A DNA stretch of 64,000 nt from an uncultured Lachnospiraceae bacterium (GTDB lineage: Bacteria; Bacillota; Clostridia; Lachnospirales; Lachnospiraceae): positions 1-64,000 of the forward strand of contig CADAOZ010000013.1 of the NCBI GenBank assembly GCA_902789735.1. The letters are read 5' to 3'. The stretch's first letter is position 1. Every line of letters begins with the position of its first letter. The position numbers and the translations under genes are program-made. Under the pieces are notes generated by a model. The model was not told the origin of the DNA and did not search any database. It worked only from the letters and a program-made list of their open reading frames with translations. This document shows, piece after piece, positions 16,616 through 45,666 of the stretch.

Positions 16616-17455
16616 ATGTCCATATATAAGCTGGCTGCCTTCGATATGGACGGCACACTTTTAAATTCGGCAAAAGAAATTCAGCCTTCTGCGACTGCGG
16701 CTTTTAAAAGAGCTATTCAGGCAGGACGGATCCTGGCCCTGGATACGGGCAGAGCTGTAACGGAACTTCGTCAGTATCCTTTTATAGAGATGGGCATCCG
16801 TTACGGCGCCTGTGCCTGCGGAACCGTCATTTATGATTTTCAGGAAAACAGGGTCCTGGCCAAAAAGTCGATTCCTGCGGAGTTGATTCCCATAATCGTG
16901 GAAGCCTCCCGGGAAGAGGATCTGATGTTCCAGGCTATGGTGGACGGGATTTCCTATGTGGAAGAAGCCAGTGTAAAAAGGATGGACCATTATCAGATGG
17001 GTATCTATCAGCCGCTTTATGAAGATACGACTTCCTACGCGGAAGATGTACGTGACTTTGCCCTGGCCCACGCAGACTCGATCAATAAGATCAATCTTTA
17101 TCATACGGATCCGGAAAGCCGGGAAAGGACGGGAAAACGTCTGGCCGGCCTGCCGCTGGACTTTACCTACGCGGAGACCACTTCCTTTGAGATCACGCCG
17201 CAGGGCGTTTCGAAAGGGACCGGCCTGCAGGACCTGTGCCGTGTGCTGGACATTCCGATCGACCAGGCCATCGGCGTCGGGGACGCTTTTAATGATGTTC
17301 CCATGCTGCGGATGGCGGGTCTTGGCATTGCCATGGGCAATTCTAATGAAGCAGCCCTGAAGGCAGCGGATGTAATCGTGGGAGATAATGACCATGACGG
17401 CATCGCGGAAGTCATTGACCGCTATCTGATTGGAGGACCGTTTCCTTTAGGATGA
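16616..17455 (+). CDS. Cof-type HAD-IIB phosphatase
   Basis: A 279-residue cytoplasmic sugar-phosphate or nucleotide phosphatase. It starts with the nucleophile motif LAAFDMDGTLLNS, continues with RILALDTGRAVTELRQYP, and ends with the magnesium loop GVGDAFNDVPMLRMAGLGIAMGNSNEAALKAAD. All four HAD motifs look intact, so it should be active; substrates of Cof proteins are usually broad. GGAGG at 16604-16608 sets the start. It is followed 95 bases later by the metal-sensor gene. Confidence 0.93.
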   Translation: MSIYKLAAFDMDGTLLNSAKEIQPSATAAFKRAIQAGRILALDTGRAVTELRQYPFIEMGIRYGACACGTVIYDFQENRVLAKKSIPAELIPIIVEASREEDLMFQAMVDGISYVEEASVKRMDHYQMGIYQPLYEDTTSYAEDVRDFALAHADSINKINLYHTDPESRERTGKRLAGLPLDFTYAETTSFEITPQGVSKGTGLQDLCRVLDIPIDQAIGVGDAFNDVPMLRMAGLGIAMGNSNEAALKAADVIVGDNDHDGIAEVIDRYLIGGPFPLG

Positions 17456-26807: not shown

Positions 26808-27902
26808 ATGAAAGTTGTATTGCAGAATCTTACAAAGAAGTTCCCGGGCAGAGGCAAGAATAAGACGGACGAGGTCATTGCCGTCAATGATTTCACCTTC
26901 GAGATCCCGGACGGCAAACTGATCGGCCTGCTGGGTCCTTCGGGCTGCGGCAAATCCACCTGCCTGAATCTGATCTGCGGCCTGCTGCGGCCCACCAGCG
27001 GTAAGATTTATTTCGGCGAGGACGATGTCACCGATCTGCCCCCGGAGAGCAGAGGGGTCGGTATGGTCTTTCAGAACTACGCCCTTTATCCGCACCTGAC
27101 AGTAAAGCAGAATATCATGTTCCCTCTTGAAAATCTTAAAGGGGATAAGAAGATGACCAAACAGGCCATGGAAGCCAAGGCGTTGGAGGCTGCCAAACTG
27201 GTCCAGATCGATATGCTCATGGACAGAAAGCCGGGAGAACTGTCCGGCGGTCAGCAGCAGCGTGTGGCTATTGCCAGGGCTTTGGTCAAGACGCCCCGGG
27301 TCCTGCTTCTGGATGAACCGCTGTCCAACCTGGATGCCCGCCTGCGTCTGCAGACCCGTGAAGAGATCCGCAGGATCCAGACAGAAACGGGCGTCACGAC
27401 CATCTTTGTAACCCATGACCAGGAAGAAGCCATGAGTATTTCCGACCTGATCTTTGTCATGAAGCTGGGGGTTCTGCAGCAGATCGGAATGCCTCAGGAT
27501 GTCTATGACGATCCGGTCAACCTGTTCGTAGCCAAATTCCTGGGTACGCCTCCCATCAATGTATTTGCCGGACGTGTCAAAGGACAAAAGCTCTATATTG
27601 ACGACCTTCCTCTGATAGATGTCCCCGGCGTAAAGGACCAGGAAGTCTGGGCCGGCATCCGTCCGGAAGGATTCATCCTGGACGAGCAGGGACCTCTTGT
27701 ATGCAGATTCGGGGCTGTTGAAGTCATGGGACGCGATATCAGCGTGGTATCCTATCATGACGCCTGCCAGAGTCCCACCGTCCGTTCCATCATAGACGCG
27801 GACAATCATGTGCTGCCGCTGGAAGGCAAAGTCCGCTTCTCGGTCAAACCCCATAAAGTCCACATTTTCAATAAGGAAACCGAAGAGAGGATCCGTTTCT
27901 GA
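26808..27902 (+). CDS. sugar ABC transporter ATP-binding protein, MsmK/MalK/UgpC type
   Basis: A 364-residue importer ATPase with Walker A GPSGCGKSTC, Q-loop VFQNYALYPHLTV, signature LSGGQQQRVAIARAL, Walker B VLLLDEPLSNLDARLR and H-loop FVTHDQEEA. Residues 240-364 form the C-terminal OB/TOBE regulatory domain of the carbohydrate-uptake (CUT1) class. It powers the two permeases encoded next. In Firmicutes such ATPases can serve several sugar transporters. A ribosome site (GGAAGGA) precedes the ATG. First gene of a four-gene operon. Confidence 0.96.
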   Translation: MKVVLQNLTKKFPGRGKNKTDEVIAVNDFTFEIPDGKLIGLLGPSGCGKSTCLNLICGLLRPTSGKIYFGEDDVTDLPPESRGVGMVFQNYALYPHLTVKQNIMFPLENLKGDKKMTKQAMEAKALEAAKLVQIDMLMDRKPGELSGGQQQRVAIARALVKTPRVLLLDEPLSNLDARLRLQTREEIRRIQTETGVTTIFVTHDQEEAMSISDLIFVMKLGVLQQIGMPQDVYDDPVNLFVAKFLGTPPINVFAGRVKGQKLYIDDLPLIDVPGVKDQEVWAGIRPEGFILDEQGPLVCRFGAVEVMGRDISVVSYHDACQSPTVRSIIDADNHVLPLEGKVRFSVKPHKVHIFNKETEERIRF

Positions 27903-27926
27903 TCCGGCCTGAAAGGATGGTAAACA

Positions 27927-28817
27927 ATGGATTATAAGAATAATAAAGCCTGGTTATACCTCCTGCCGGCGATCATCTTCCTCGGCTGCTTCATGGTATA
28001 CCCTCTGATCGATGTTTTCGTCTACTCCTTTGAGGAGGGATACAATTCCGCTTCCCAGACTTCCTTCGGCCTGGGCGGCTACAACTATTCCTATGTACTG
28101 CATGACCCCTATTTCATGCAGGCGGTCAAGAATACCTTCCTGCTGGTCGTCATCACAGTGCCCCTGTCCACAGGACTGGCTCTGCTGATCTCCGTAGGAC
28201 TAAGTTCTATTGATAAACTCAAGAACCTGTTCCAGACCATTTATTTCCTGCCCTATGTCACCAACACCCTGGCAGTCGGTCTGGTCTTCATGATTCTGTT
28301 CAAAAAGACCCCTTATTCTGACGGCCTGATGAACGCCCTGATCAAGTTCTTCGGCGGAACGGCGGTGGATTTTATTGACGGTCCCTACTGGGCCAAGATG
28401 CTGGTCCTGTGCCTGTACACCATATGGATCGTCATGCCATTTAAGATTCTGCTCCTGACCAGTGCCCTGGCTTCGGTCCGGGAGGATTATTACAACGCGG
28501 CCAAAGTGGATGGGACCTCCCGCTGGAGGACCTTCTATAAGATCACCCTTCCCATGATCTCCCCGACGATCTTTTATCTGGTCATCACCGGTTTCATCGG
28601 GGCCTTCAAGGTCTACAGCGACGCGGTCGCCCTGTTCGGCACCAATCTGAACGCTTCCGAAATGAATACCATCGTCGGCTATATTTACGATATGCTCTAC
28701 GGTGACAGCGGCGGATATCCGTCCTATGCCTCCGCGGCAGCCATCATTCTCTTTGTGATCGTCCTGACCATTACCTGCATCAACATGCTGGTCAGCGAGA
28801 AGCATGTGCATTATTAA
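27927..28817 (+). CDS. sugar ABC transporter permease (CUT1, first)
   Basis: A 296-residue permease with six membrane segments. The EAA loop that contacts the ATPase is YYNAAKVDGTSRWRTFYKITLPM, matching the CUT1 MalF/MsmF class. It begins 24 bases after the ATPase gene and is followed by the second permease. The sugar cannot be predicted from it. The ribosome site is AAAGGATGG. Confidence 0.95.
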   Translation: MDYKNNKAWLYLLPAIIFLGCFMVYPLIDVFVYSFEEGYNSASQTSFGLGGYNYSYVLHDPYFMQAVKNTFLLVVITVPLSTGLALLISVGLSSIDKLKNLFQTIYFLPYVTNTLAVGLVFMILFKKTPYSDGLMNALIKFFGGTAVDFIDGPYWAKMLVLCLYTIWIVMPFKILLLTSALASVREDYYNAAKVDGTSRWRTFYKITLPMISPTIFYLVITGFIGAFKVYSDAVALFGTNLNASEMNTIVGYIYDMLYGDSGGYPSYASAAAIILFVIVLTITCINMLVSEKHVHY

Positions 28818-28828
28818 GGAGGTACGTG

Positions 28829-29704
28829 ATGGATAAGAATGTCGATTATGATAAGATCAGATCCAGCGCGGCAGCCCGCCGGCGTACGATCCGGATCATC
28901 ACCTATATCCTGCTGGCTTTCTGGGCTGTGATCGTCCTTTTCCCTTTCTACTGGATGGTCCTGACCTCTGTGAAGAGCTACAGCGCCTACAGTTCGGAGT
29001 ATGTTCCCAAACTGTATACCCTGAATCCGACTTTCCAGAATTATGTGGACGCGTTCACGGCTGTCAACCTGAGCCGGTATTTCCTTAATACCCTGATTTT
29101 TACAGTCATTACAACAGCCGCCATGATCCTGGTCATCACCCTGTCAGCCTACGCTTTCGCCCGTATGGAATTCAGGGGCAAGGATACCCTGTTCACCTTT
29201 TTCCTGGCTCTGATGATGATTCCCAATGAACTGGTCATCATCACCAACTTTACCACGATCACCAACCTGGGCCTGCGCAATACCTTTACCGGTCTGATCC
29301 TGCCCTCCATTACGTCGGTCTTCTATATTTATCTGCTGCGGGAGAATTTCCTGCAGGTACCGGATGAACTCTATTACGCGGCCAAAGTGGACGGGACCTC
29401 GGACCTCAAGTATCTCTGGAAGGTCATGCTGCCGATCTGCAAGCCCACTATTATCACGATCATCATCCTCAAGGTCATCGAGTGCTGGAATTCCTATGTA
29501 TGGCCCCGTCTGATCACGGATGACGCCAACTATTTCCTGGTATCCAACGGTATCCAGGAGATCCGCGAGAACGGCTTCGGCCGGGAAAACATCCCTGCCA
29601 TGATGGCCGCTGTCGTGGCGATCTCGATCCCGCTGATCGTCCTCTTCCTGATCTTCCGCAAGAAGATCATGGCCGGCGTTTCGAGAGGAGGTATTAAGGG
29701 ATGA
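28829..29704 (+). CDS. sugar ABC transporter permease (CUT1, second)
   Basis: A 291-residue MalG/MsmG-type permease. After a charged N-terminus it has six membrane segments and the EAA loop LYYAAKVDGTSDLKYLWKVMLP. It pairs with the previous permease to form the channel. AAGGAGG is seven bases from the ATG at 28829, better than the GTG at 28826. Its stop overlaps the start of the binding-protein gene by four bases (ATGA), so translation is coupled. Confidence 0.95.
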   Translation: MDKNVDYDKIRSSAAARRRTIRIITYILLAFWAVIVLFPFYWMVLTSVKSYSAYSSEYVPKLYTLNPTFQNYVDAFTAVNLSRYFLNTLIFTVITTAAMILVITLSAYAFARMEFRGKDTLFTFFLALMMIPNELVIITNFTTITNLGLRNTFTGLILPSITSVFYIYLLRENFLQVPDELYYAAKVDGTSDLKYLWKVMLPICKPTIITIIILKVIECWNSYVWPRLITDDANYFLVSNGIQEIRENGFGRENIPAMMAAVVAISIPLIVLFLIFRKKIMAGVSRGGIKG

Positions 29705-31335
29705 AAAATAAAAAAGTACGCGCGGGGCTCCCGTGCAGGCTCCTGCCTGTCATTGTCCTGCTGCTGGCGCTGACCTGCGGGCTGCTGACCGGCTGCCATG
29801 GCTCCTCCGGTATGGCGGAATTCCAGGTACCGGAATCCTTTGATACTGCCCGGCAGTTCGAGCTCACCTTCTGGGCCAAGAACGATACCAACAAGACCCA
29901 GACCGCCATATATGAAAAGGCCATCTCGGACTTCCAGGCGATCTATCCCAACATCAAAGTCAATATGCGCCTGTATACGGATTACGGCAAGATCTACAAT
30001 GATGTCATCACCAACATCGCCACCAACACGACGCCCAATGTCTGTATTACCTATCCGGACCATATCGCAACTTACCTGACCGGCAATAACATCGTGGTCC
30101 CTCTGGATGACCTGATGCAGGATCCGTCCTTTGGATTCGGCGGCAGTGAACTGGCTTATGATGGTCCCGACAGCGGGGAAGTCATTCCGGAATTCCTGGA
30201 AGAGGGCCGGATCGGAGAGAAGATCTATGACCTCCCCTATATGCGGTCTACGGAAGCTGTCTATATCAATAAGACCTTTGTCGAAAAGCTGGGCTATGAA
30301 GTACCGGATACTCTGACCTGGGATTTTATCTGGGAAGTATCAGAGGCAGCCGCAGCCAAAGATGACAGCGGCAAATACGCGGTCAACGGTCAGAATGTCA
30401 TGATTCCCTTCATCTATAAATCCACGGATAATATGCTGATCCAGATGCTGAAGCAGAAAGGAGCCGGCTATTCGACAGATGAGGGCGCGATCGAGATCTT
30501 CAATGATACGACCGATGAGATCCTTTATACCGTCGCGGACCATGTGAAGACAGGCGCTTTCTCGACGTTCAAGATCTCCAGCTATCCCGCCAACTTTATG
30601 AATGCCGGTCAGTGTGTATTCGCCATTGATTCTACAGCCGGATCTACCTGGATGGGTACAGACGCGCCTCTGTCCGACATCTCGAAAGACAAACTGGTCC
30701 AGTTCGAGACCGCGGTACGGCCGGTGCCCCAGTTTGACCCGGACCATCCCCAGATGATCTCCCAGGGACCTTCCGTCTGCATCTTCAACAAGCAGGATCC
30801 CCAGGAAGTCCTGGCCTCCTGGCTCTTCGCCCAGTACCTGCTGACCAACGAAGTCCAGATCGCCTACGCGGAGACAGAAGGATATGTACCGGTCACTTCC
30901 AAAGCCCAGACCTCGGAGGAATATCTGGATTATCTGGGCCGGGGCGGCGAAGATAACGCCCTGCATTATCAGGTCAAGATCGACGCCACGCAGATGCTGA
31001 TCGACAATATTTCCAACACCTTCACCACGCCCGTATTCAACGGCTCCGCATCCCTGCGTGACGCTGCCGGCCAGCTGATCGAAAGTGTGGCCAAGTCCGT
31101 CCGCAGGAAAGAGACCATTGATGACGCTTATTTGAAGAAACTGTATGCCAACACCATATCCCTGTACCGTCTGGACCAGCTGGGCAGCGGGGACGCCATC
31201 GGCGGCGGCAAACAGGAACTTGGCGAGCTGCCTGCCACTTCCAAGGCGCTTTTGGGTATTCTTGCATTGACATGGCTGCTGATCGCGGTCTATTTCATCC
31301 GGGACAGGATGATCAACAAACAGAAAAATGGATGA
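29701..31335 (+). CDS. extracellular sugar-binding lipoprotein with C-terminal membrane anchor
   Basis: A 544-residue family-1 solute-binding protein. Residues 1-32 are a lipoprotein signal (lipobox LLTGC). The mature part has the binding-protein fold: LTFWAKNDTNKTQTAIYEKA, then YPNIKVNMRLYTDYGK, VCITYPDHIATYL, and the hinge region with IYDLPYMRSTEAVYINK. The last 28 residues are unusual: a hydrophobic helix (ALLGILALTWLLIAVYFI) followed by basic residues, which would anchor the C-terminus as well. Binding proteins normally lack this. It ends the four-gene uptake operon. Confidence 0.93.
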   Translation: MKNKKVRAGLPCRLLPVIVLLLALTCGLLTGCHGSSGMAEFQVPESFDTARQFELTFWAKNDTNKTQTAIYEKAISDFQAIYPNIKVNMRLYTDYGKIYNDVITNIATNTTPNVCITYPDHIATYLTGNNIVVPLDDLMQDPSFGFGGSELAYDGPDSGEVIPEFLEEGRIGEKIYDLPYMRSTEAVYINKTFVEKLGYEVPDTLTWDFIWEVSEAAAAKDDSGKYAVNGQNVMIPFIYKSTDNMLIQMLKQKGAGYSTDEGAIEIFNDTTDEILYTVADHVKTGAFSTFKISSYPANFMNAGQCVFAIDSTAGSTWMGTDAPLSDISKDKLVQFETAVRPVPQFDPDHPQMISQGPSVCIFNKQDPQEVLASWLFAQYLLTNEVQIAYAETEGYVPVTSKAQTSEEYLDYLGRGGEDNALHYQVKIDATQMLIDNISNTFTTPVFNGSASLRDAAGQLIESVAKSVRRKETIDDAYLKKLYANTISLYRLDQLGSGDAIGGGKQELGELPATSKALLGILALTWLLIAVYFIRDRMINKQKNG

Positions 31336-34972: not shown

Positions 34973-35130
34973 CCATTCATTATGCTGACAAATATGTTAA
35001 AAAGTTTGAAAATCCAACACTAAAAACACCCTTTGGCCCTGTTTGTGTCCTCTTAACAAGAAGGTCTAACATATGATAGAATAGTTAACGGAAAATCATC
35101 TGTACAGAAATGGACAGCGGACAGGCAGGT

Positions 35131-36108
35131 ATGTCTATGTGGGAAAAAGATAAAATTGTCAACAGAATACTGGCTGGTGTCTATATCGCGGCTCTGATCC
35201 TATTATTCAGTACCGGCATGAACTGGCTGCGGCTTTCCGATAAAGGAACTGAGAATTCACGTCTGATCGGCGCCAGCTATATGACCATGAATAATGAGTT
35301 CTATGATATCCTGAACGAGCAGATCCGTGTCCGCGTGGAAGGGGAAGGAGATCTGATGGTCCTGCGCGATCCCGGCCTGGATGTGGAACGTCAGGCGGAG
35401 CAGATCAACAGCATGCTGGACATGGGCATCAGCGCCCTGATCGTGACCCCGGTCTCTTTCGACGGTCTCAGTGACGTCCTGCAGCGGGCCAGGGGGATGG
35501 GCGTAAAGATCATTGTCGTAGACACGGAAGTAGAACAGGAGGGCCTGGCAGACTGCACCATTGTATCAGACAACTACAGGGCCGGTTATGCCATCGGTGA
35601 ATATATGATGCGGAAACAGGAATCCGGCAGAATCCTGGTCCTGGCGCATGAAACTGCCATATCAGGCCGGCGCAGAGTCCAGGGCTTCAAGGACTCCATC
35701 GCGGGAGATAAACGTTTTGAAATCGTGAATGAAATCGGCTGTAAGGGACAGTATGAGATCGCCCTGCCGCTGGTGGAGGACTATATTGAATCCGGCGGTA
35801 CATTTGATACCGTCTTCTGCCTGAATGACCTGGCCGGCGAGGCGGCGGTGACAGCCGTCCGCAGGCACCCGGAGCTGGGAAAAGTATACGTCTACGGCGT
35901 GGACGGTTCTCCCGACGCCAAATCCATGATCGGTGCGGGAGAAATGGAGGCCACCGCGGCCCAGTTCCCGACGGAGATCGGAGAGGAAGCCGCCGATACT
36001 CTCTATAAGATGCTGCGGGGAGAGGATTATGAATCCACCATCACGGTCCCCATCGATCTGGTCTATTACAGCAACCTGGAACAATATGACAGCAACAGAT
36101 GGCAGTAG
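35131..36108 (+). CDS. membrane-anchored periplasmic-type sugar-binding protein (sensor input)
   Basis: A roughly 325-residue protein with one N-terminal membrane segment (RILAGVYIAALILLFSTG) and an extracellular type-I periplasmic-binding-protein domain of the ribose/xylose class: IGASYMTMNNEFYDILNEQI, ALIVTPVSFDGLSDVLQRA, VDTEVEQEGLADCTIVSDN, GRRRVQGFKD, and VYVYGVDGSPDAK. There is no lipobox and no ABC permease gene beside it; a histidine kinase and response regulator follow. That matches sensing modules such as clostridial XylFII-LytS, in which a binding protein senses sugar for a kinase. Start choice between 35110, 35131 and 35137 is uncertain. Confidence 0.85.
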   Translation: MSMWEKDKIVNRILAGVYIAALILLFSTGMNWLRLSDKGTENSRLIGASYMTMNNEFYDILNEQIRVRVEGEGDLMVLRDPGLDVERQAEQINSMLDMGISALIVTPVSFDGLSDVLQRARGMGVKIIVVDTEVEQEGLADCTIVSDNYRAGYAIGEYMMRKQESGRILVLAHETAISGRRRVQGFKDSIAGDKRFEIVNEIGCKGQYEIALPLVEDYIESGGTFDTVFCLNDLAGEAAVTAVRRHPELGKVYVYGVDGSPDAKSMIGAGEMEATAAQFPTEIGEEAADTLYKMLRGEDYESTITVPIDLVYYSNLEQYDSNRWQ

Positions 36109-36152
36109 TTGCCGAAGCGGACACCTGTCCGTTCTGCCGGAGCAGACACACA

Positions 36153-37469
36153 ATGGATCTTTTCAAAATCAACCGCCGGGTCCCCGAGACCATCTGGAAG
36201 ATCATGAAGCATATGAACCTGCTGATCCTCCTGTATATCACGGTCATATCCTACCATGCGATCATGGAGCTGGCCCGCAGCAATTCGGCCGGCCTGTTTA
36301 TAAAATCAATATCCGTCCTGCCTCTGGAAAGCACCCGCTTTGTCGTTTCCGTTTTTATCCTTTACGGGGCGCTGCTCCTGCTGTTCCGGCTGGATCTGGA
36401 GGAGGAACAATTGTGGCTGGTCAAGGTCATGATCGAAGTGGCAGTCAGTGTCATGATCACTCTGGTATGCGGAATGGCCTACACCGGGATCATCATCCTT
36501 GTCATGGTCGACATCATCCATGGTTCCTATACCATGCACCGCAAAGTCAAGGCACTGATCTTTGTGATCATCGTTTATTTCATCATGGACTCCGAGATCC
36601 TCAACCTGTGGTACAAACATGTATCCTTCTCGGATTATCTGATCTTTTATAACAGCAAAGCTGCCGGTATCCTGCAGAGTATCCTGAATATCATGGAACT
36701 GGTCAATATCGTCATGTTCATTCTGTTCCTGATCGTCTCTCTGCGGAATCAGATGGATGAAACGGCCCGGATCATGCTGCTGAATGAAGAACTGACGGAA
36801 GCCAATATCAAGCTGGAGGAATACTCCAGAAAATCAGCGGAAATGGCCCAGATGAAGGAGAGGAACCGTCTGGCCCGGGAGATCCATGACACGATCGGCC
36901 ATGCCCTGACCGGTATTGTGACCGGGCTGGAGGCCTGCCTGGTCATATTCGACCTGGAACCGTCCCTGGCCCGGAAACAGATGGAAGCCATCCAGGAAGT
37001 CGCCAGACAGGGCATGAAGGATGTAAGACGTTCGGTAAACGCCCTGCGGCCCGATGTGCTGGAACAGCTGACCCTGGACGCCGCCATAGAACGTATGGTG
37101 GACGAAATGTGCCGGTCCACCGGAATCCGTTTTGATTATATATGTACGGATTCTCTCAGCGGTCTGGACCAGGATGAGGAAGACATTGTCTACCGGATCC
37201 TGCAGGAGAGCATTACCAACTCCGTCCGGCACGGAAAGCCGACCCGGATCAATATACGGATCGAACGTACCGGCCAGCAGCTGGAAATCCTGATCAGGGA
37301 CAACGGAATCGGCTGCCGGGACCTGCATAAAGGCTTTGGCCTGACCCATATGCAGGAAAGGCTGGACATGCTGGGAGGGACCCTTTCAGTCAACGGAAAT
37401 GACGGTTTTGAAGTGAGAGCGGAGATTCCCCTTCGCTTCCATACGGGAGAGGTGAATGTCAATGATTAA
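36153..37469 (+). CDS. sensor histidine kinase, NarX/DesK type (HisKA_3)
   Basis: A roughly 438-residue kinase. Five or six hydrophobic segments (residues about 20-200) are followed by a coiled-coil linker, the HisKA_3 box RLAREIHDTIGHALTGIVTG with the phospho-His, and a HATPase domain (VYRILQESITNSVRHGKPTR, IRDNGIGCRDLHKGFGLTHMQERLDMLGG). The neighbouring binding protein probably supplies the signal. An earlier ATG at 36099 overlaps the previous stop, but GGAG sits 10 bases before the ATG at 36153 and the N-terminus there looks more natural. The gene overlaps the response regulator. Confidence 0.93.
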   Translation: MDLFKINRRVPETIWKIMKHMNLLILLYITVISYHAIMELARSNSAGLFIKSISVLPLESTRFVVSVFILYGALLLLFRLDLEEEQLWLVKVMIEVAVSVMITLVCGMAYTGIIILVMVDIIHGSYTMHRKVKALIFVIIVYFIMDSEILNLWYKHVSFSDYLIFYNSKAAGILQSILNIMELVNIVMFILFLIVSLRNQMDETARIMLLNEELTEANIKLEEYSRKSAEMAQMKERNRLAREIHDTIGHALTGIVTGLEACLVIFDLEPSLARKQMEAIQEVARQGMKDVRRSVNALRPDVLEQLTLDAAIERMVDEMCRSTGIRFDYICTDSLSGLDQDEEDIVYRILQESITNSVRHGKPTRINIRIERTGQQLEILIRDNGIGCRDLHKGFGLTHMQERLDMLGGTLSVNGNDGFEVRAEIPLRFHTGEVNVND

Positions 37470-38142
37470 AATTTTGATCGCGGATGACCAGGAACTGATC
37501 CGGCAGAGCCTGCAGATCATGCTGAGTTCTGTTTCGAATTTTTCGGTCACAGATACGGTATCCAATGGTCTGGAAGTACTGGAGAGCGTCCGCAGGGAGA
37601 AACCGGACGTCATACTGATGGATATCCGCATGCCGGAGATGGACGGCGTCGTCTGTATCCAGAAAGTCAAGGAATACAGCCCTGATATCAAGGTGATCAT
37701 CCTGACCACCTTTGACGATGATGAATATATATTCAACGCCATTAAGTTCGGGGCCAGCGGCTATCTGCTCAAGGGGACTTCCCTGAAAAATCTGACATCC
37801 GCCATTGAAAAGGTCTACAACGGCAGATCGATCATGAATGAGGAGATCACGGACAAGGTCTTCCGTATGTTCTCCCATATGGCCCAGACCAATCAGACTA
37901 TCCGGGTGGGCGAACAGCTGTCCGGCAAACTCAAGGAATCCGAATGGGAGATCATTGACTGTGTGGGACGGGGCATGTCGAACAAGGAGATTGCCGCCAG
38001 GCTGCATTTGTCAGAAGGGACCATCCGCAACAGCCTGAGCGTGATCCTGAGTAAACTGGGGCTGAAGAACCGGACCCAGCTGGGAATCTGGGCGGTCCAG
38101 ACAGATACGGCAGCCCGCAGATACGGATCGGAAGACCAGTAA
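37462..38142 (+). CDS. NarL/FixJ-family response regulator
   Basis: A 226-residue transcription regulator. The receiver domain has MIKILIADDQELIRQ, phospho-acceptor Asp54 in DVILMDIRMPEMDG, and SGYLLKGTS with the conserved lysine. The C-terminal LuxR-type helix-turn-helix is WEIIDCVGRGMSNKEIAAR and LHLSEGTIRNSLSVILSKLGL. It overlaps the kinase end, so the pair is translationally coupled. The ATG at 37462 is better spaced from GAGAGG than the one at 37456. Targets are unknown; the sugar operon at 26.8 kb or the PTS at 39.8 kb are nearby candidates. Confidence 0.95.
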   Translation: MIKILIADDQELIRQSLQIMLSSVSNFSVTDTVSNGLEVLESVRREKPDVILMDIRMPEMDGVVCIQKVKEYSPDIKVIILTTFDDDEYIFNAIKFGASGYLLKGTSLKNLTSAIEKVYNGRSIMNEEITDKVFRMFSHMAQTNQTIRVGEQLSGKLKESEWEIIDCVGRGMSNKEIAARLHLSEGTIRNSLSVILSKLGLKNRTQLGIWAVQTDTAARRYGSEDQ

Positions 38143-38157
38143 ACAGGTACATAAGCT

Positions 38158-39474
38158 ATGGAACATTTCACAAAACAGCAGAGAGGCCGGCTGGGGCTGC
38201 TGACAGCCCTGCTGATGATCGCTTTTACGCTGGGTTTTATTCTGAATCCCCTGCTCAGAAATTACAGTGATAATACCGGAATCCTGCGGATCGGCGTATT
38301 CTCGGACAGTCCATGGGGAGAAAGCAACGGCTACTCCCATGTCATCCTGAATCAGGCCATCGCGGCGTTTGAAAAAAAGAATCCGGGCGTTAAGGTCGTC
38401 TACGAAAGCGGCATACGGCGGCAGGACTATTCGGAGTGGCTGTCGGAAGGAATCCTGAAGGGGACGGCACCTGACCTCTTCTTCGTTCTGGATGAAGACT
38501 TTGAATATCTGGCAGATGTGGGCGCCCTGCAGAACCTTGAAACGTTTACAGACGGGGATCCGGCTTTTGATCCGGACGTTTATTATGAAGCGGCCCTTAT
38601 GGCCGGAAAGAGGGGGCAGATCCTGTATGGGCTCCCTCTGGAATGCTCGCCGACGATCATGGTCGTAAACACTTCCATTCTGGAGAAGGAAAAGATAGAA
38701 ATGCCTGCCATGGACTGGACCTGGAATGACTGCTACCGCATCTGCAGGCAGGTCACGGGGAGGAGAGAGAACAGTTCCGGGTACCAGTTCGGCATTTCGG
38801 AATATGACTGGGAGAACTGTTTTTATTCCAATGACGTTGTCCTTTTTTCGGAAGACGGCAGTACCTGCTATCTGACAGATGAAAAGGCCGGCGAGGCGAT
38901 CTCCTTCCTGGACAAACTGGGACGGCTGGCAGCCAAGGCCACCAATGTACAGCCTTCCTTCTCTGACGGCAATGTACTCTTTCAGCCTATGAGCTATTCG
39001 GCTTATAAAGCCTATATCAGTAATCCCATCCATATGGGCGTAGGAGATGATTTTAGCTGGCAGATCCATTCCATGCCGGCCGGTCCCCATGGGGACAATC
39101 ATTCGCTCCTGCAGACCCAGCTGATCGCCATGAACAGCCAGTCCTCCAAAAAAGAACTGGCCTGGGAACTGATGAAGACTATGACCGCGGACCCGGAAGT
39201 ACAGAAGGAGATATACCGCTATTCGGAAGGAATCTCCGTCCTGCGGGATGTAACTTCCGCGGATGATGCCGCGGCGGAACAGCGCCGCGATAAGGATACT
39301 GAGGTATTGCGCATTGCCATGGAAAAAGCGGTCAACCGGCAGCGTTTCCGGGGCAAGGAGGAAGCCGGACAGCAGATTGGGCTGGCCGTTGACAGTATCC
39401 TGGCGGGATCAGGCAATATACGGATGGAGCAGATCATATATAACCGGAGGATCAACCGCTACCTGCAGCAGTAA
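38158..39474 (+). CDS. second membrane-anchored solute-binding protein of the sensing operon
   Basis: A 438-residue family-1 extracellular solute-binding protein. An N-terminal hydrophobic segment (LGLLTALLMIAFTLGFIL) lacks a lipobox, so it is an uncleaved anchor. The binding domain follows: ILRIGVFSDSPWGESNGY, FEKKNPGVKVVYESGIRR, TAPDLFFVLDEDFEYLADVG and ILYGLPLECSPTIMVVNTSI. It starts 15 bases after the response regulator, in the same operon, and no permease is encoded. A role as a second input or ligand-presenting partner for the kinase is inferred. A terminator follows. Confidence 0.88.
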   Translation: MEHFTKQQRGRLGLLTALLMIAFTLGFILNPLLRNYSDNTGILRIGVFSDSPWGESNGYSHVILNQAIAAFEKKNPGVKVVYESGIRRQDYSEWLSEGILKGTAPDLFFVLDEDFEYLADVGALQNLETFTDGDPAFDPDVYYEAALMAGKRGQILYGLPLECSPTIMVVNTSILEKEKIEMPAMDWTWNDCYRICRQVTGRRENSSGYQFGISEYDWENCFYSNDVVLFSEDGSTCYLTDEKAGEAISFLDKLGRLAAKATNVQPSFSDGNVLFQPMSYSAYKAYISNPIHMGVGDDFSWQIHSMPAGPHGDNHSLLQTQLIAMNSQSSKKELAWELMKTMTADPEVQKEIYRYSEGISVLRDVTSADDAAAEQRRDKDTEVLRIAMEKAVNRQRFRGKEEAGQQIGLAVDSILAGSGNIRMEQIIYNRRINRYLQQ

Positions 39475-39562: not shown

Positions 39563-39591
39563 AAAGAGCCTTTTTTAAGGCTCTTTTTTTG
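39563..39591 (+). terminator. rho-independent terminator of the sensing operon
   Basis: AAAGAGCCTT pairs with AAGGCTCTTT around a TTTT loop, followed by seven or more T. Confidence 0.92.
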
Positions 39592-39649: not shown

Positions 39650-39770
39650 TCACCCCAATTTATGACAAATGTAATTGTATAAAAGGGAAAATTGTTAGAG
39701 ACAAATCTTCAAACTTTTTTTATAATTATTTTATAGTTTATAAACTCATTAAGAAAGGAGGGAGCAATTA

Positions 39771-40202
39771 ATGAAGTATGTGCTTATTGTCAGTCATGGA
39801 ATGCTGGCCCCCGGTCTGCATGATGCTGTCAAGATGCTGGCAGGCGAAGACAAGCCGGAAGTACGCAGCACCAGCCTGAAAAACGGTATGGGCGCTGATG
39901 AGTACGCCGACAACTTCCGCCAGCTGACCGAAGACATCGGCCCTGATGATGAAGTCATTCTGTTCGCGGACATCGTAGGTGGTTCACCTCTTTCCTTCGC
40001 GGCAAATGTAATTGCCGAAAAGGGTCTGCTCGGTAATACGCTCATGATCGGCGGCATGAACCTGCCTTTGGTCCTGACAACAGTGCTGATGAAAGACACA
40101 ATGGAGCTGGAAGACATCAAGGAGGATATCCTCTCTGAAGCCGCGGAAGCTTTAAAGGTCTTTGAAGTTGCTGTTGACGAAGGCGCTGATGATGACATCT
40201 GA
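39771..40202 (+). CDS. mannose-family PTS enzyme IIA
   Basis: A 143-residue cytoplasmic PTS IIA of the mannose/fructose/sorbose family. It begins MKYVLIVSHGMLAPGLHDAV, with His9 as the phosphorylation site in the SHG motif, then FADIVGGSPLSFAANV and GGMNLPLVLTTV. It takes phosphate from HPr and passes it to IIB. AAGGAGGGAG precedes the ATG. It opens a IIA-IIB-IIC-IID operon in which all four components are separate genes. Codon choice is strongly biased, which suggests high expression. Confidence 0.95.
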   Translation: MKYVLIVSHGMLAPGLHDAVKMLAGEDKPEVRSTSLKNGMGADEYADNFRQLTEDIGPDDEVILFADIVGGSPLSFAANVIAEKGLLGNTLMIGGMNLPLVLTTVLMKDTMELEDIKEDILSEAAEALKVFEVAVDEGADDDI

Positions 40203-40245: not shown

Positions 40246-40743
40246 ATGGCTATTTCTTTTATCCGTGTTGACGACAGAATGATTCATGGTCAGACCGTTA
40301 CCAGATGGTCTCTGGAATATCCCTGCACAGGCCTGATCGCTGTAAACGACGCTGCTGCCAAGAACCCTGTTCTGAAGCAGGCCTACAAGAGCGCTTCCGA
40401 CAAGAAGACCTTCGTATGGGGCGTTGATGAGTTCCTTTCCAAGTCCGCCAAGGTCCTGGCTTCCAAGGATCAGTACTTCCTGATCACAAAGAACCCCATC
40501 GACATGAAGAAGATCCTGGTTGACGCCGACTTTGATCCTCAGGGCGTTAAGACCATCATCATCGGACCCTGCAACGACCGTCCCGGCACCACAAAGCTCG
40601 GCAATAACCAGTCCATCACCAATGATGAAGCGGCCGCTCTGGAAGCCATCATGCAGAAGGGCTATGAGATCGAGTTCGCTCTGGTCAAAGAGACAGCAAT
40701 CGGAAACTGGAAGAAGTTCAGAGGACAGTTCGGTTACAACTAA
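40246..40743 (+). CDS. mannose-family PTS enzyme IIB
   Basis: A 165-residue IIB protein. The start MAISFIRVDDRMIHGQTVTRW carries the active His14 in RMIHGQ, standard for this family, in which IIB is phosphorylated on histidine rather than cysteine. It transfers phosphate to the incoming sugar. GAAAGGAG precedes the ATG, 43 bases after the IIA gene. Substrate specificity (mannose, fructose, sorbose, glucosamine or amino-sugar acids) cannot be told. Confidence 0.95.
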   Translation: MAISFIRVDDRMIHGQTVTRWSLEYPCTGLIAVNDAAAKNPVLKQAYKSASDKKTFVWGVDEFLSKSAKVLASKDQYFLITKNPIDMKKILVDADFDPQGVKTIIIGPCNDRPGTTKLGNNQSITNDEAAALEAIMQKGYEIEFALVKETAIGNWKKFRGQFGYN

Positions 40744-40789: not shown

Positions 40790-41638
40790 ATGTCTATTAG
40801 CTTTATCCAGGCGTTTATTCTTGGCATTTTTGCCTGCCTGTCATCCATGCCCGGTATGGGTAGTTCCTCCATCGGTAACTATACCCTGGGCCGTCCCCTG
40901 GTAGGCGGACTGGTCTGCGGCCTTGTTCTTGGCGATATCCGCACCGGTATCCTGGTCGGCGTAGCCATGCAGGTCGTTTACATCGCTCTGGTTACCCCCG
41001 GCGGAACTGTTTCCGCTGATGTCCGTGCGGTATCCTACATCGGTATCCCGCTGGCCATGCTGGCTCTGAAATCCCAGGGCCTGGATCCCGCCAGTGTAGA
41101 AGGCGCGGGCCTTGCGACTTCCTTCGGCGCCATGGTCGGTACTGTCGGTACTGTCCTTTTCTATGGTACTGCTACCCTCAACCTTGTCTGGCAGCATATG
41201 GGCTGGAGCGCGGTTGAAAAACGTAACTACAAGATGATCGCGGTCACGGACAGATATCTGCCCTGGATCTCCCACATCGCATTCTCTCTGATCCCTACCG
41301 TTATTATGCTGATGCTGGGTCAGACTGTTGTTGAAGCGATCAAGACTTACCTTCCCATGGATGGTCTGGCAATGAAGTCTCTGTTCACTGTTGGTTCCCT
41401 GCTTCCCTGCGTAGGTATCGCAATCCTGCTCAAGCAGATCGTCAGAAACGTCACAGATTTCATTCCTTATCTGACAGGTTTTGTTTTTGCTAAGAGCATT
41501 GGTATCAACCTTGTATCCGCAACTGTTGTTGCTGCCATGTTCGCGATTCTTATTTATAAGCTGAAGATGCTCGAGCTGGTAAGACCCGCAGCTTCCGCAG
41601 GCGGCGGCTTAGATGATGACGAAGAGGAGGATATCTGA
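40790..41638 (+). CDS. mannose-family PTS enzyme IIC
   Basis: A 282-residue membrane component. The N-terminus SFIQAFILGIFACLSSMPGM, the LVGGLVCGLVLGDIRTGILVG segment and VAMQVVYIALVTPGGTVSAD are typical of IIC (ManY-like). Together with IID it forms the sugar channel. GAAGGAG precedes the ATG. Its end, rich in acidic residues (DDDEEED), overlaps the ribosome site of the IID gene. Confidence 0.95.
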   Translation: MSISFIQAFILGIFACLSSMPGMGSSSIGNYTLGRPLVGGLVCGLVLGDIRTGILVGVAMQVVYIALVTPGGTVSADVRAVSYIGIPLAMLALKSQGLDPASVEGAGLATSFGAMVGTVGTVLFYGTATLNLVWQHMGWSAVEKRNYKMIAVTDRYLPWISHIAFSLIPTVIMLMLGQTVVEAIKTYLPMDGLAMKSLFTVGSLLPCVGIAILLKQIVRNVTDFIPYLTGFVFAKSIGINLVSATVVAAMFAILIYKLKMLELVRPAASAGGGLDDDEEEDI

Positions 41639-41639
41639 T

Positions 41640-42476
41640 ATGGCAGAGAAGAAATTATCCAAAAAGGCATTGTCCACATCATTCCATCATTGGTATTGGG
41701 GCCATCTGACCTGCTTCTCCCAGGAGCACATGCAGACCTTCGGTTACCTTCATTCCATGCTTCCTCTTTGCCAGGAACTCTATGACAATGAAGAAGATCT
41801 GGCCAGGTCTATGAATACTTATACCGCTTTCTTCAATACAGAGCCTCAGCTGGGTACCGTTATTGTCGGTATCACCGCAGGTCTGGAAGAAGCCCGCGCC
41901 AACGGCGACGATGAAGTTGACGACGAGACCATCAACGGCCTCCGTGCAGGTCTGATGGGACCCATCGCCGGTATCGGTGACTCCCTGGTCGTTGGTACTG
42001 TTATCCCGATCCTCCTTGGTATCGCCATGGGTATGTCCGGCGGCGGTTCACCTCTGGGCGCGATCTTCTACATCATCGTATGGAACCTGTTCGCGTATTT
42101 CGGAATGCGTTATCTCTATTTCACCGGCTACAACCTGGGTGGTAAAGCCGTTGAATTCCTGGTCGGCGCGCAGGGTATGGCCATCCGTGAAGCTGTCTCC
42201 ACACTGGGCGGTTTCGTTATCGGTGCTGTTTCCGCTACATGGGTAAGTGTACAGACCTCTCTGGCATTATACAACGCGGACGGCGAAGCTTATCTGGTAC
42301 TGCAGAATAAGCTGGATGAAGTATTCCCCGGACTTCTTACCGCGGTCACCATCATCATCTGCTGGTATCTGATGGCTAAGAAGAAAATGTCTCCGATCAA
42401 GGTCATGCTGATCCTTCTGGTCGTTGCCATCGTCGGCTGCGCGATCGGATTCTTCAACCCCGGACTTTCCTATTAA
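41640..42476 (+). CDS. mannose-family PTS enzyme IID
   Basis: A 278-residue ManZ-like membrane protein. It has LSTSFHHWYWGHLTCFSQEHMQ near the start, AGLMGPIAGIGDSLVVGTVIPI in the middle and a C-terminal membrane segment. The ATG at 41640 lies one base after the IIC stop, with GAGGAGG in the IIC end as ribosome site. It completes the sugar translocator. A terminator follows, so the four PTS genes form one unit. Confidence 0.95.
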   Translation: MAEKKLSKKALSTSFHHWYWGHLTCFSQEHMQTFGYLHSMLPLCQELYDNEEDLARSMNTYTAFFNTEPQLGTVIVGITAGLEEARANGDDEVDDETINGLRAGLMGPIAGIGDSLVVGTVIPILLGIAMGMSGGGSPLGAIFYIIVWNLFAYFGMRYLYFTGYNLGGKAVEFLVGAQGMAIREAVSTLGGFVIGAVSATWVSVQTSLALYNADGEAYLVLQNKLDEVFPGLLTAVTIIICWYLMAKKKMSPIKVMLILLVVAIVGCAIGFFNPGLSY

Positions 42477-42575: not shown

Positions 42576-42998
42576 ATGAATAAAGAACAGAAAGAAGCCT
42601 GGCTGAAAGAAGCCGAAATGCAGATGAAAGCCATCCGGACCCTCGAAAAGTATAATATGGCCGCCCTGGCGGTCGCGGGCCTTGGCGCCGCCTTCTGTTA
42701 TTTCAACTTCCGGGCAGCGGATCGGAATCTTCTTTTGATCATCTGCAGCGTTGTCCTTGCTGCCTTAGGCGCCCTGTCCTCCATGGTCCTGAGTGTGGGA
42801 ATCCGTAATGGCAAAGCCAATGTTGCCAGGATTCTGGATGCTGTAGAAGGAAAAATACCGGAAATGCCTGCTGCAGACAAAGCCGGTGCGTCCAAGCCGG
42901 GAGCCGCTTCTGAAGTTCCGTCGAATACGGAACCAAAAGCAGCAGACGCCGGAAGCGCCACGCCGGCCGGCGATGCTGAGGATGGAAAGAAAGGTTGA
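42576..42998 (+). CDS. small membrane protein with acidic, Ala/Pro-rich tail
   Basis: A 140-residue protein of unknown function. A charged N-terminal helix (MNKEQKEAWLKEAEMQMKAI) is followed by two membrane segments at about 28-45 and 52-70, then a disordered tail rich in Ala, Pro, Ser and Asp with a basic end. It starts 23 bases after the PTS terminator, with GAAGGAG as ribosome site, so read-through from the PTS operon could express it. No family is recognised. Confidence 0.72.
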   Translation: MNKEQKEAWLKEAEMQMKAIRTLEKYNMAALAVAGLGAAFCYFNFRAADRNLLLIICSVVLAALGALSSMVLSVGIRNGKANVARILDAVEGKIPEMPAADKAGASKPGAASEVPSNTEPKAADAGSATPAGDAEDGKKG

Positions 42999-43125: not shown

Positions 43126-44814
43126 TCACGTATCAAGAGTGATGAGAACGACCCGGGCCTCATAAGGCTGCAGGATGCCCATCCTGTGCAGGTCATAGTT
43201 GGAAATGATCTCTATTCCGTCCGCCCGGTCAAACAGGTTGCAGGGCTGGTCCCTGTCTGACCAGTTGCAGGCCACGACCAGGATCTTGTCATTCAGTTTC
43301 CTTTTGTACGCGTAGACCGTTTCACTGTCTTCCATAAGCGGCTCAAAGACGCCGTATACAATTACAGGATTTTCATGACGCAGTTTTATAAGCTTCTGAT
43401 AGTAATAAAATACAGAATCCGGATCTGCCAGCGCCGCCTTGGCGTTGATTTCTTTATATGAGGGATTGACTTTGATCCATGGCTGTCCGACGGTGAATCC
43501 GGCGTTGGGGCCGTCATCCCACTGCATGGGGGTCCTGGCGTTGTCCCTGCCCAGTTCGTTAAAGCAGGCAAGCATATATGCCCCGTCCACCATGTGATGA
43601 TCTGTCACATACTGCTGATAGGCGTTGATTTCCTCGATATCCCTGCATTCATCCAGGGTCCAGGTACAGTTGACCATACCCAGCTCTTCTCCCTGATAAA
43701 TGTAAGGAGTCCCCTTCATCATATGCAGGCAGGTGGCCAGCATCTTGGCGGATTTTACACGCCACCGGGGGCTGTCATTGCCGAACCGGGAGACACAACG
43801 GGGCTGATCATGGTTGTCCAGATAGAGGCTGTTCCAGGCCCTGCCTTCCAGTTCCGTCTGCCATTTGTTGAGGATAGGACGCAGATCTTTCAGGGCCGGT
43901 TTGACCGTCGTCCATTTACCGAGGGGGATATCGGCCCCGGAGATGGGCCCCATATGCTCAAAATGGAAGACCATGCCCAGTTCTGTCTGGTCCTGATTGG
44001 CGTATTTCATGGCTTCCTGGATCGTGACGCCAGCGGCTTCCCCGACGGTCAGCAGATCATAACGGGACAGGACTTTACGGTTCATTTCCCGCAGAAATTC
44101 GTGGACTCTGGGACCGCTGACTGTATATGGCGCAGAGTCCCCGTAAAGACCGTCATAGCTGATTCCGTCCGGGAAAGTCTGGACCTTGGAAATCAGGCTG
44201 ATAACATCCATCCGGAAACCATCGATCCCTTTGTCGCACCACCAGGTCATCAGGTCGAAGACTTTCTCCCTGACTTTGTCATTCTCCCAGTTCAGGTCCG
44301 GCTGTTTGCGGGAGAACAGATGCAGATAGTACTGTCCGGTCTTCTCATCAAACTGCCAGGCGGAACCGCTGAAAGAGGAGGCCCAGTTGTTGGGGGCGCT
44401 GCCATCCGGCCTGGGATCCCGCCAGATATAATAGTCTCTGTAAGGATTGTCCCGGGATGACCGGCTTTCCACGAACCAGGGATGCTCATCGGAAGAATGA
44501 TTGACGACCAGGTCCATGACAATTCGGATCCCCAGGCCATGGGCTGCCGCCAGCATACGGTCAAAATCCTCCATGGTTCCGAAATCCTCCATGATATTTC
44601 TGTAATCGGAAATATCATATCCGTTATCATCATTCGGAGAGGAATAGACCGGGCAGAGCCAGATCACATCGATTCCCAGTTCCTTCAAATAGGGAAGATG
44701 CTCTGTGATCCCGTTCAGATCCCCGATCCCGTCACCGTTGCTGTCCGCAAAGGACCTGGGATAGATCTGATAGATGACTGCTTCTTTCCACCAGGCGCGT
44801 TTTTCCTGTTCCAT
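43126..44814 (-). CDS. GH13 alpha-glucosidase (oligo-1,6-glucosidase type)
   Basis: A 562-residue cytoplasmic enzyme hydrolysing alpha-glucosides such as isomaltose, trehalose-6-phosphate or sucrose-like substrates. Motifs: AVIYQIYPRSFADSNGDGIGDL, DLVVNHSSDEHPWF, nucleophile Asp in GFRMDVISLISK, catalytic Glu in LTVGEAAGV, and NHDQPR. The ATG at 44814 follows GGGAGG; a longer frame begins at 44841 without a ribosome site. It lies 33 bases after the Cof phosphatase gene, so the two probably share a transcript. It suits the breakdown of maltodextrin made by MalQ or imported sugars. Confidence 0.94.
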   Translation of the reverse strand: MEQEKRAWWKEAVIYQIYPRSFADSNGDGIGDLNGITEHLPYLKELGIDVIWLCPVYSSPNDDNGYDISDYRNIMEDFGTMEDFDRMLAAAHGLGIRIVMDLVVNHSSDEHPWFVESRSSRDNPYRDYYIWRDPRPDGSAPNNWASSFSGSAWQFDEKTGQYYLHLFSRKQPDLNWENDKVREKVFDLMTWWCDKGIDGFRMDVISLISKVQTFPDGISYDGLYGDSAPYTVSGPRVHEFLREMNRKVLSRYDLLTVGEAAGVTIQEAMKYANQDQTELGMVFHFEHMGPISGADIPLGKWTTVKPALKDLRPILNKWQTELEGRAWNSLYLDNHDQPRCVSRFGNDSPRWRVKSAKMLATCLHMMKGTPYIYQGEELGMVNCTWTLDECRDIEEINAYQQYVTDHHMVDGAYMLACFNELGRDNARTPMQWDDGPNAGFTVGQPWIKVNPSYKEINAKAALADPDSVFYYYQKLIKLRHENPVIVYGVFEPLMEDSETVYAYKRKLNDKILVVACNWSDRDQPCNLFDRADGIEIISNYDLHRMGILQPYEARVVLITLDT

Positions 44815-44847
44815 TTTTTTTCCTCCCTGTATCCGCCGCAATGATGT

Positions 44848-45666
44848 TCACTGATGCAGGACCAGCGTCTCTATAATCTCCGCGACGCCGCCCTCCCAGC
44901 AGTTAGCCTTTGAAGTGTAGTCGCAGATGGCTTTGATCTCATCCAGGGCGTTGGCAACACAGGCCGAGGTCCCCGCGGCCTGCAGCATGGCCAGATCATT
45001 GATATTATCACCGATCGCCAGCGTCTCCTCAATGGGAATGTTCAGGATTTCCGCCATTTTGACAAGACCGCTTCCTTTATTAACGCCCAGAGGATTGAAC
45101 TCCAGATAACGTTTGGAAGAATAGCTGACATCCAGGTCTCCTGTCATGTATTCCATTTCCTTTTCCACCCGGTTGAGGAAAGGAATATCGGTACATTCAA
45201 AGAGGATCTTGGCAAAGGTCTCATCTTTCAGGGCTTCCAGATCCTTATGGTCATAGGGGATATATTCCATCCGTCCTTTCAGAAAATCTTTCTCATCCTC
45301 ATCGATCTTGTAAATATAGACATCCGTCTGGGTATAGACATGCATACAGAGGTCATAGGATACGCCGACCTGATACAGCTCCGAGATTTTCTCATAAGAC
45401 AGACCGTGGAAATGGAGCAGGCGGTTTCCGGCGTTTTCTGTTATAGCGCCGCCGTTATAGGAAATAATATACTGACCTGCCTTTCCTTTCGTCCCGAGCT
45501 CTTCCAGGGTGCCCTGAATCGATGGATACCCGCGGCCGCTGCAGGGAACGAAAATGACGCCCTGCTCCTGGGCACGCCAGATAGCCTCCAGGTTCTTTTT
45601 TCCGACTTTCTTATCTGCAGGATTTAATAATGTTTCATCCAGGTCACTGGCAATCAATCTGATCAT
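44848..45666 (-). CDS. Cof-type HAD-IIB phosphatase
   Basis: A 272-residue HAD phosphatase with the nucleophile motif LIASDLDETLLNP (DxDET in place of DxDGT, as in some Cof members), FVPCSGRGYPSI, the lysine region YLEFNPLGVNKGSGL and the magnesium loop AIGDNINDLAMLQAAG. GGAGGAG precedes the ATG. It is the first gene of a two-gene operon with the GH13 glucosidase, so a sugar phosphate is a plausible substrate. Confidence 0.94.
   Translation of the reverse strand: MIRLIASDLDETLLNPADKKVGKKNLEAIWRAQEQGVIFVPCSGRGYPSIQGTLEELGTKGKAGQYIISYNGGAITENAGNRLLHFHGLSYEKISELYQVGVSYDLCMHVYTQTDVYIYKIDEDEKDFLKGRMEYIPYDHKDLEALKDETFAKILFECTDIPFLNRVEKEMEYMTGDLDVSYSSKRYLEFNPLGVNKGSGLVKMAEILNIPIEETLAIGDNINDLAMLQAAGTSACVANALDEIKAICDYTSKANCWEGGVAEIIETLVLHQ

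Follow-up and report, generated by a model that had tools for sequence, protein, structure and literature searches.

Four adjacent genes coding for two solute-binding proteins, a sensor kinase and a response regulator are found near the middle of the window, the whole stretch of 64,000 nucleotides analysed here, which comes from an uncultured Lachnospiraceae bacterium. The genes and the features that follow them are listed below.

35110..36108, + strand: SBP1, type-I periplasmic-binding fold, predicted uncleaved N-terminal anchor, LevT position (Pfam Peripla_BP_4, 9.8e-42; 332 aa)
36099..37469, + strand: HisKA_3 sensor kinase, multi-helix membrane part, LevS-type (Pfam HisKA_3, 6.8e-20, and HATPase_c; 456 aa; start may be later)
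37456..38142, + strand: NarL-type response regulator, LevR-type (Pfam Response_reg, 2.8e-28, and GerE; 228 aa)
38158..39474, + strand: SBP2, family-1 solute-binding protein, N-terminal anchor helix, LevQ position (Pfam SBP_bac_1, 8.6e-26; 438 aa)
39563..39590, + strand: terminator-like inverted repeat and T run between the sensor and PTS operons (read from the sequence)
39662..39675, + strand: predicted LevR-type operator (its core, TGACAAATGTAA, spans 39663-39674 and differs from the palindrome at one position)
39698..39726, + strand: promoter-like GAGACA-17-TATAAT of the PTS operon (10 of 12 positions matched)
39771..40202, + strand: PTS EIIA, mannose family, LevD-like (best NCBIfam matches, below curated cut-offs)
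40246..40743, + strand: PTS EIIB, sorbose/mannose family, LevE-like
40790..41638, + strand: PTS EIIC, mannose family, LevF-like
41613..42476, + strand: PTS EIID, mannose family, LevG-like

The start of SBP1 is uncertain and lies at 35110 or at a later in-frame ATG at 35131, the start chosen in an earlier note on this DNA. The SBP1 and kinase genes overlap by 10 bp with the first ATG, a later start being found in most orthologues; the kinase and regulator genes overlap by 14 bp, and the gap between the regulator and SBP2 is 15 bp. A single N-terminal hydrophobic stretch is present in the ORF translation of each binding protein, and a rough sequence pattern finds no lipobox in either. The anchoring itself is a prediction; in the model of SBP2 (pLDDT 86.5) residues 6-36 form a single helix preceding the binding fold. 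The earlier note had described this gene order, the missing lipoboxes, the overlapping or nearly touching genes and the lack of a permease for either binding protein, and the ORFs and Pfam matches, all on the + strand, bear it out: SBP2 is followed by PTS genes, not by ABC permeases. It had also placed the unit with a sugar ABC operon on one side and a PTS operon on the other. This is correct downstream, where the PTS directly adjoins, but upstream the CUT1-type ABC operon (26808-31335) is 3.8 kb away, behind three ORFs (31442, 32334 and 33655).

The best PDB relatives of SBP1 are ribose-type monosaccharide binders, while those of SBP2 are mostly oligosaccharide binders; the top fold match of the SBP2 model is 5f7v. 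The positions of SBP1 that we take to be sugar-pocket residues are invariant in alignment A2. The aromatic residues W53, Y82, W218, Y286 and W301 are invariant in the alignment of SBP2, with a putative role in the pocket. The kinase model (pLDDT 82) has helices at residues 14-61, 78-97, 103-124, 130-141 and 146-164 with short loops, and a helix of residues 186-284 that runs into the kinase core; it contains no large outside domain. This kinase is the sole HisKA_3 match in its own genome (assembly 93.6% complete).

Conservation of the unit across relatives

The clade was sampled as 57 collected loci with kinases of the window's clade, the scan of genome contigs covering 80 listed matches. Five loci are cut by a contig end within the unit (L051, L069, L061, L058 and L074), leaving 52 unit-complete loci; L155 is kept among these though only 406 bp precede its kinase. 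The counts are of loci and not of independent events, near-duplicate kinase pairs (at least 85%: L069/L074, L059/L060, L072/L156 and L077/L162) being retained. The clade includes streptococci, Lachnospiraceae and other Clostridia-type bacteria, Selenomonas and a Sphaerochaetaceae genome. The four proteins of the window are diverged from these relatives, the kinase being 29-42% identical to 24 family relatives in alignment A1.

All four genes are present in 52 of the 52 unit-complete loci. The order of the window is found in 49, and since it recurs in 49 of the 57 clade loci the arrangement is not due to chance. The co-occurrence check proposed in the earlier note thus has a positive outcome, both binding proteins accompanying the kinase wherever the unit is uncut. 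Near the kinases of 60 other HisKA_3 loci, several of them cut by contig ends, relatives of SBP1, SBP2 and SBPabc were sought, and none of SBP1 or SBP2 was found. One of these loci, L107, carries an SBP2-like ORF (78 bits) far from the kinase. The HMM scores of the clade and of the other HisKA_3 loci are clearly set apart, none falling between 232 and 369 bits.

It is important to consider whether SBP2 is always followed by permease genes, which the earlier note had named as grounds for refuting its reading. This is not so, as far as the locus sequences extend, because the nearest downstream CUT1-type permease above 40 bits in the 54 loci with SBP2 is 3.3 kb past SBP2 (L060). Genes near the unit in the clade include those of the D-lyxose/mannose isomerase family, PfkB kinases and class II aldolase. 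In addition, fruK and a fructose PTS neighbour the unit in L047, and the S. caballi operon adjoins a GH32 fructanase gene. These neighbours point to a ketohexose or mannose as the probable sugar.

The predicted operator

The dyad was searched as the palindrome TGACA-NN-TGTCA, with at most one mismatch unless called exact. Upstream of the EIIA/PTS genes it is found in 20 of 20 loci, in exact form in 13, where shuffled sequences give means of 0.29 and 0.02, respectively. Of 20 loci with a CUT2 ABC importer, 17 also have it upstream of an importer gene. In the window, the dyad at 39662-39675 is probably the site of the regulator. It lies at about -71 to -58 from the start deduced from the promoter-like site, which is weak evidence alone because such sites are not rarer in shuffled sequences. 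The single dyad match in the window is equalled in 13 of 100 shuffles. The inverted repeat at 39563..39590 was not listed by the terminator scan.

Over the whole genome the pattern is not clearly enriched (16 strand matches versus 6 for the reversed control). Of the 12 dyad sites, nine besides that of the window were inspected (L176 and L181 were left out), and none of the nine precedes an evident sugar gene; on these sites, a regulon exceeding the PTS in this genome is rejected. None of the five GH32 genes of this genome has a dyad with up to one mismatch directly upstream, so a fructanase arm is not seen here, and the dyad is also absent upstream of the S. caballi fructanase gene. General autoregulation is rejected, as just 3 of 54 loci have the exact dyad ahead of their SBP1 gene, which in one case is the putatively shared binding-protein gene of L155.

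Comparison with LevQRST and competing explanations

The unit should be compared with the four-component system LevQRST of the tooth-decay bacterium Streptococcus mutans, coded by the operon levTSRQ with the mannose-family PTS levDEFG downstream. According to the available portions of its description (PMC3043104), the system is induced by fructose and mannose and turns on their uptake. All four parts are needed, the binding proteins face outward and are membrane-associated, and LevS has up to five transmembrane segments with little outside the membrane. LevT is required for full induction, mutations in LevQ alter sugar specificity independently of LevT, and the binding of LevR to target promoters was demonstrated experimentally. 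The same portions state that a functional ABC transporter near levTSRQ is absent, and list a S. sanguinis operon as similar. That operon (L078) has gene content and order identical to the window, and scores 338 (SBP1), 393 (kinase) and 478 bits (SBP2) against HMMs built from the window and family relatives.

As far as these portions allow comparison, the window and S. mutans share the gene order in one operon, two membrane-anchored binding proteins (predicted in the window) without an ABC permease, a kinase that spans the membrane with several helices and exposes little beyond it (a model in the window), and an adjoining mannose-family PTS EIIABCD. The S. mutans fruA gene reportedly requires a dyad at -72 to -59, likely the LevR target, in the part of PMC9241797 consulted; the dyad of the window lies very close to it in position, the property compared. 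The systems differ in bacterial family. Among the matches listed, the kinase is 32-36% identical to three named streptococcal kinases, and the kinship in sequence was assessed on streptococci such as S. sanguinis. A further possible difference is that no operator is seen directly upstream of the fructanase-family genes of this genome.

These similarities allow us to propose, with a probability of roughly 0.85, that the unit is a LevQRST-type four-component sensor in which two anchored binding proteins, kinase and regulator control the mannose-family PTS through the dyad. SBP1 and SBP2 would be held outside the membrane on uncleaved anchors, contact the kinase and present a bound hexose, in this organism most likely fructose or mannose, to its membrane part. 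The kinase would then phosphorylate the regulator, which would bind the dyad and turn on the PTS, and the PTS would import the sugar sensed.

A LevQRST-type unit is an already known kind and not a new two-receptor sensor. The earlier note had described the known analogues as having a single binding protein. This holds for the three-component systems XylFII-LytS and CuaDSR in the part of PMC10384115 available, but LevQRST has two, with equal gene order and PTS type. Those systems, too, turn on a sugar importer by a signal that passes from a solute-binding protein to a kinase. However, they have one sensing binding protein where the window has two, and CuaS binds CuaD by an extracellular domain for which the kinase model has no large counterpart. 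The XylFII-LytS type was therefore set aside, the kinase here being HisKA_3 and not LytS-type.

The earlier note proposed that two ligands could be integrated. In such a scheme SBP1 would bind one sugar, a monosaccharide, and SBP2 another, an oligosaccharide or glycoside, and the kinase would add the signals. The structural part of the proposal stands: two binding proteins of different fold classes, predicted to be anchored, accompany one HisKA_3/NarL pair, and the window has no permease dedicated to either. The different folds and PDB relatives would agree with two ligands. However, in the published S. mutans work, as far as available, both proteins take part in responding to fructose and mannose, with LevQ shifting specificity without LevT, and a second sugar pathway recurring beside the module was not found in the clade loci. 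Integration of two ligands is thus unsupported and appears unlikely.

Somewhat less likely still, SBP2 might no longer bind sugar and might act as a scaffold or co-receptor, leaving SBP1 as the sole sugar sensor. SBP2 is nearly always helix-anchored (a lipobox in 1 of 54 loci by a rough rule, with a partial N-terminus read for some) and has no permease of its own, and kinase distances follow SBP2 more closely than SBP1 (r 0.81 versus 0.72, 52 loci, species history ignored). The invariant aromatics, putatively in the pocket, argue against this, as does the effect of the LevQ mutations on specificity in the S. mutans account. The idea of a degraded ABC importer whose binding proteins merely adjoin an unrelated two-component system could draw on the paralogy of the type-I sensor SBP1s with CUT2 transport binding proteins, but it is refuted for practical purposes by the co-conservation in all unit-complete loci, the four-way co-distribution and, in the part available, the S. 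mutans genetics.

Two further candidates were dropped as relatives. FspSR of group B Streptococcus is reportedly induced by fructose-6-phosphate. TCS-17 of group B Streptococcus was sought, and the TCS-17 found (PMC3353171) belongs to S. ratti and is of the OmpR type.

The branch linked to CUT2 importers

A CUT2 ABC importer is linked, by label, to the LevTSRQ-type unit in 26 of the 57 clade loci. These loci share with the window the four sensor genes and the palindrome, there located upstream of the transport binding-protein gene, and differ in having an ABC importer as partner and not a PTS. A lipobox is present in SBP1 of 12 of the 26 CUT2-linked loci and of 0 of 23 PTS-linked loci (rough pattern). 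Genes of the D-lyxose isomerase family, PfkB kinase or class II aldolase are often nearby. A large CUT2-coupled branch of this sensor is new, as far as the literature was searched, and the system, for which only a few genomes were named in 2011, is extended to 57 loci. The predicted operator is common to both branches, so that targets become predictable from sequence.

We suggest tentatively, with slightly less than even confidence, that LevTSRQ is a portable cassette with a swapped transporter. In a mainly Clostridia-type branch it would use the operator of the PTS branch to control a CUT2 importer together with a pathway from mannose/lyxose to ketose. Judging from gene content, L046 and perhaps L155 may have one type-I binding protein for importer and kinase alike, and the anchored family-1 protein would be for signalling only. 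The portable cassette would imply that the sensor SBP1 and the transport binding protein are paralogues specialised from one dual-use protein, and the loci in which importer and kinase may share a binding protein would offer a direct test of the change from transport receptor to signalling receptor.

The sensor unit and its published counterpart

The sensor unit (35110-39474) consists of four open reading frames whose positions and families, as assigned in the earlier note, were confirmed by ORF calling and Pfam: a type-I sugar-binding protein (SBP1), a HisKA_3 kinase, a NarL-type regulator and a family-1 solute-binding protein (SBP2). The genes overlap or lie at most 15 bp apart, the start of the kinase being uncertain. 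Neither binding protein has a lipobox, and each has a hydrophobic N-terminus. The AlphaFold model of SBP2 (mean pLDDT 86.5) presents a single helix, 6-36, followed by the binding fold. The unit had also been placed between ABC and PTS operons. The PTS operon is indeed adjacent and encodes EIIA, EIIB, EIIC and EIID of the mannose family, with EIIA assigned from matches under the curated cut-offs, but the ABC operon lies 3.8 kb upstream with three ORFs intervening. The features on this side of the unit are:

39563-39590, terminator-like repeat between the sensor operon and the PTS operon
39663-39674, copy of the predicted operator, one mismatch
39721-39726, promoter-like TATAAT
42576-42998, 140-aa ORF after EIID
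43126-45666, an ORF of the alpha-amylase family and a HAD hydrolase on the minus strand, running towards the PTS operon

Relatives of the 140-aa ORF (100-142 aa) are found in five more PTS-linked loci (L039, L040, L062, L066 and L080); no Pfam match was found in the three copies scanned (window, L062, L039).

PMC3043104 describes levTSRQ of S. mutans directly 5' of levDEFG, a fructose/mannose PTS, with fructose and mannose as inducers. LevQ is essential there, loss of LevT reduces induction to 10-20%, and insertions around TM4-TM5 of LevS cause aberrant, LevQ-dependent signalling. Operons of similar make-up are named there for S. gordonii, S. sanguinis, two lactobacilli, C. acetobutylicum and Dorea longicatena. 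In our set, the locus from S. sanguinis (L078) has the gene order and PTS of the window, and the unit is therefore assigned to the LevQRST kind, the comparison of sequences being with S. sanguinis. The architecture had been read largely correctly and the observation was sound, but the novelty claimed for it fails, because LevQRST is published.

Conservation of the four genes and the CUT2-linked branch

A kinase search of 397 genomes of the same family (E <= 1e-30) gave 25 positive genomes including its own, and a 25-row kinase profile at 1e-60 gave 13, again including its own, among 398 genomes drawn from the phylum. The named collection gave at least 80 loci with kinase matches. The combined set, window included, holds 57 loci scoring 369-671 bits with the profile and 60 further loci scoring 232 or less, the share of the named collection being the matches listed. 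Members named among the matches listed are Lachnospiraceae, Oribacterium, Lachnoclostridium, Blautia, Clostridiaceae, Oscillospiraceae, Avoscillospira, Selenomonas, three Streptococcus, a Sphaerochaetaceae, a Firmicutes MAG and a Eubacteriales MAG, the closest of these kinases (71% identity) being that of Lachnospiraceae bacterium UBA3287, which makes a Lachnospiraceae origin of the window probable.

Both binding proteins co-occur with the kinase. The four genes are consecutive, in the order SBP1-kinase-regulator-SBP2, in 49 of the 57 loci, five are interrupted by a contig end, and the remaining three have all four genes rearranged: kinase-SBP2-SBP1 with the regulator far upstream (L073); SBP1 as first gene of a CUT2 importer operon, then kinase-regulator-SBP2 (L046); and kinase-regulator-SBP2-SBP1-importer, with only 406 bp of sequence upstream of the kinase (L155). 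Neither binding protein was found near the kinase in the 60 loci with other kinases among the matches listed. Within the available locus sequence, no CUT1-type permease was detected directly 3' of SBP2. A 687-aa ORF with a hydrophobic N-terminal start (L073:5678-7741) lies between importer and kinase, just 5' of the rearranged sensor genes.

By label, the 57 loci comprise 26 linked to a CUT2 importer, 23 linked to a PTS and 8 to neither. On the kinase tree (a quick tree, no bootstrap) 24 rows, 23 CUT2-linked and one unlabelled, form one branch (SH-aLRT 95), and at least four PTS/CUT2 changes are required. The 20 transport binding proteins form one group (support 100), placed next to the CUT2-linked sensors in the tree of binding proteins; the shared proteins of L046 and L155 are not part of this group and branch with L073 and L079 (support 92). 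A lipobox is present in the SBP1 of 12 of the 26 CUT2-linked loci and of none of the 23 PTS-linked ones. Repeated neighbours in BLAST clusters, named via cluster representatives, are class II aldolase (8 loci), the D-lyxose isomerase family (7) and PfkB kinases (6), and L047 adjoins fruK and a fructose PTS; these genes are compatible with a ketohexose or mannose signal. No published account of the ABC-linked form was recognised in searches of the open-licence PMC literature. The PTS operon of L062 goes on (14157-17207) to encode a 118-aa product, a HAD phosphatase, and an HPr and enzyme I of its own.

The predicted operator

The dyad TGACA-NN-TGTCA was scored in the 300 bp upstream of EIIA and of the CUT2 transport binding protein (Table).

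Table. Loci with the dyad upstream of transport genes (shuffle means in brackets)
Upstream of EIIA: exact 13/20 (0.02); at most one mismatch 20/20 (0.29)
Upstream of CUT2 transport binding protein: exact 9/20 (0.02); at most one mismatch 17/20 (0.25)

All clade loci contain 33 exact dyads in 958 kb, 22 of them within these upstream regions, which total 12.6 kb. Seven of the other 11 precede another importer-related gene: fruK (L047), the shared binding protein (L155), the CUT2 ATPase (L073, two dyads) and other mannose-type PTS genes (L157, L076, L161). Two precede SBP1 (L039, L061), one lies slightly within an importer gene as called, whose true start may be further downstream (L057), and one is without explanation (L159). 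If the promoter-like TATAAT is used, the window copy is located at about -71 to -58. The fruA gene of S. mutans reportedly needs a dyad at -72 to -59, the likely LevR target (PMC9241797); the likeness is one of position.

Importer loci from two genomes without the kinase at 1e-30 (L213, L214) have no site with at most one mismatch 5' of the transport binding protein. Contig L216 of the kinase-bearing genome G170 is a counter-case, having no site at this gene. Of the 397 genomes, 18 have the transport binding protein (1e-90) and 16 of these also have the kinase; the PTS EIIC (1e-60) occurs in eight, seven of them kinase-positive, against a base rate of 25/397 for the kinase. In L212, where EIIC is 82% identical, the regulator, an exact site and the PTS are all kept, while kinase, SBP1 and SBP2, the three outside-sensing parts, are together absent from its 16 kb. 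The regulator is directly followed by dyad and PTS genes (8925-10232) and is possibly an orphan LevR-type regulator. An exact dyad also lies 5' of an unrelated ABC ATPase gene (L214:172-183).

Ligand pocket and possible signal path

Residues N55, D131, R182, N232, D258 and Q278 are invariant in the SBP1 alignment, and alignments place them at the positions of ribose-binding protein that we take to be N13, D89, R141, N190, D215 and Q235; the position presumably matching its R90 is mostly T or S. SBP1 therefore probably still binds a monosaccharide. An external sugar would be bound by SBP1, SBP2 or both, the signal may reach the kinase by way of the anchors and the membrane helices, and the regulator would then act at the dyad to activate the importer operon. 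The steps after sugar binding are modelled on the genetics of S. mutans, a different organism from that of the window.
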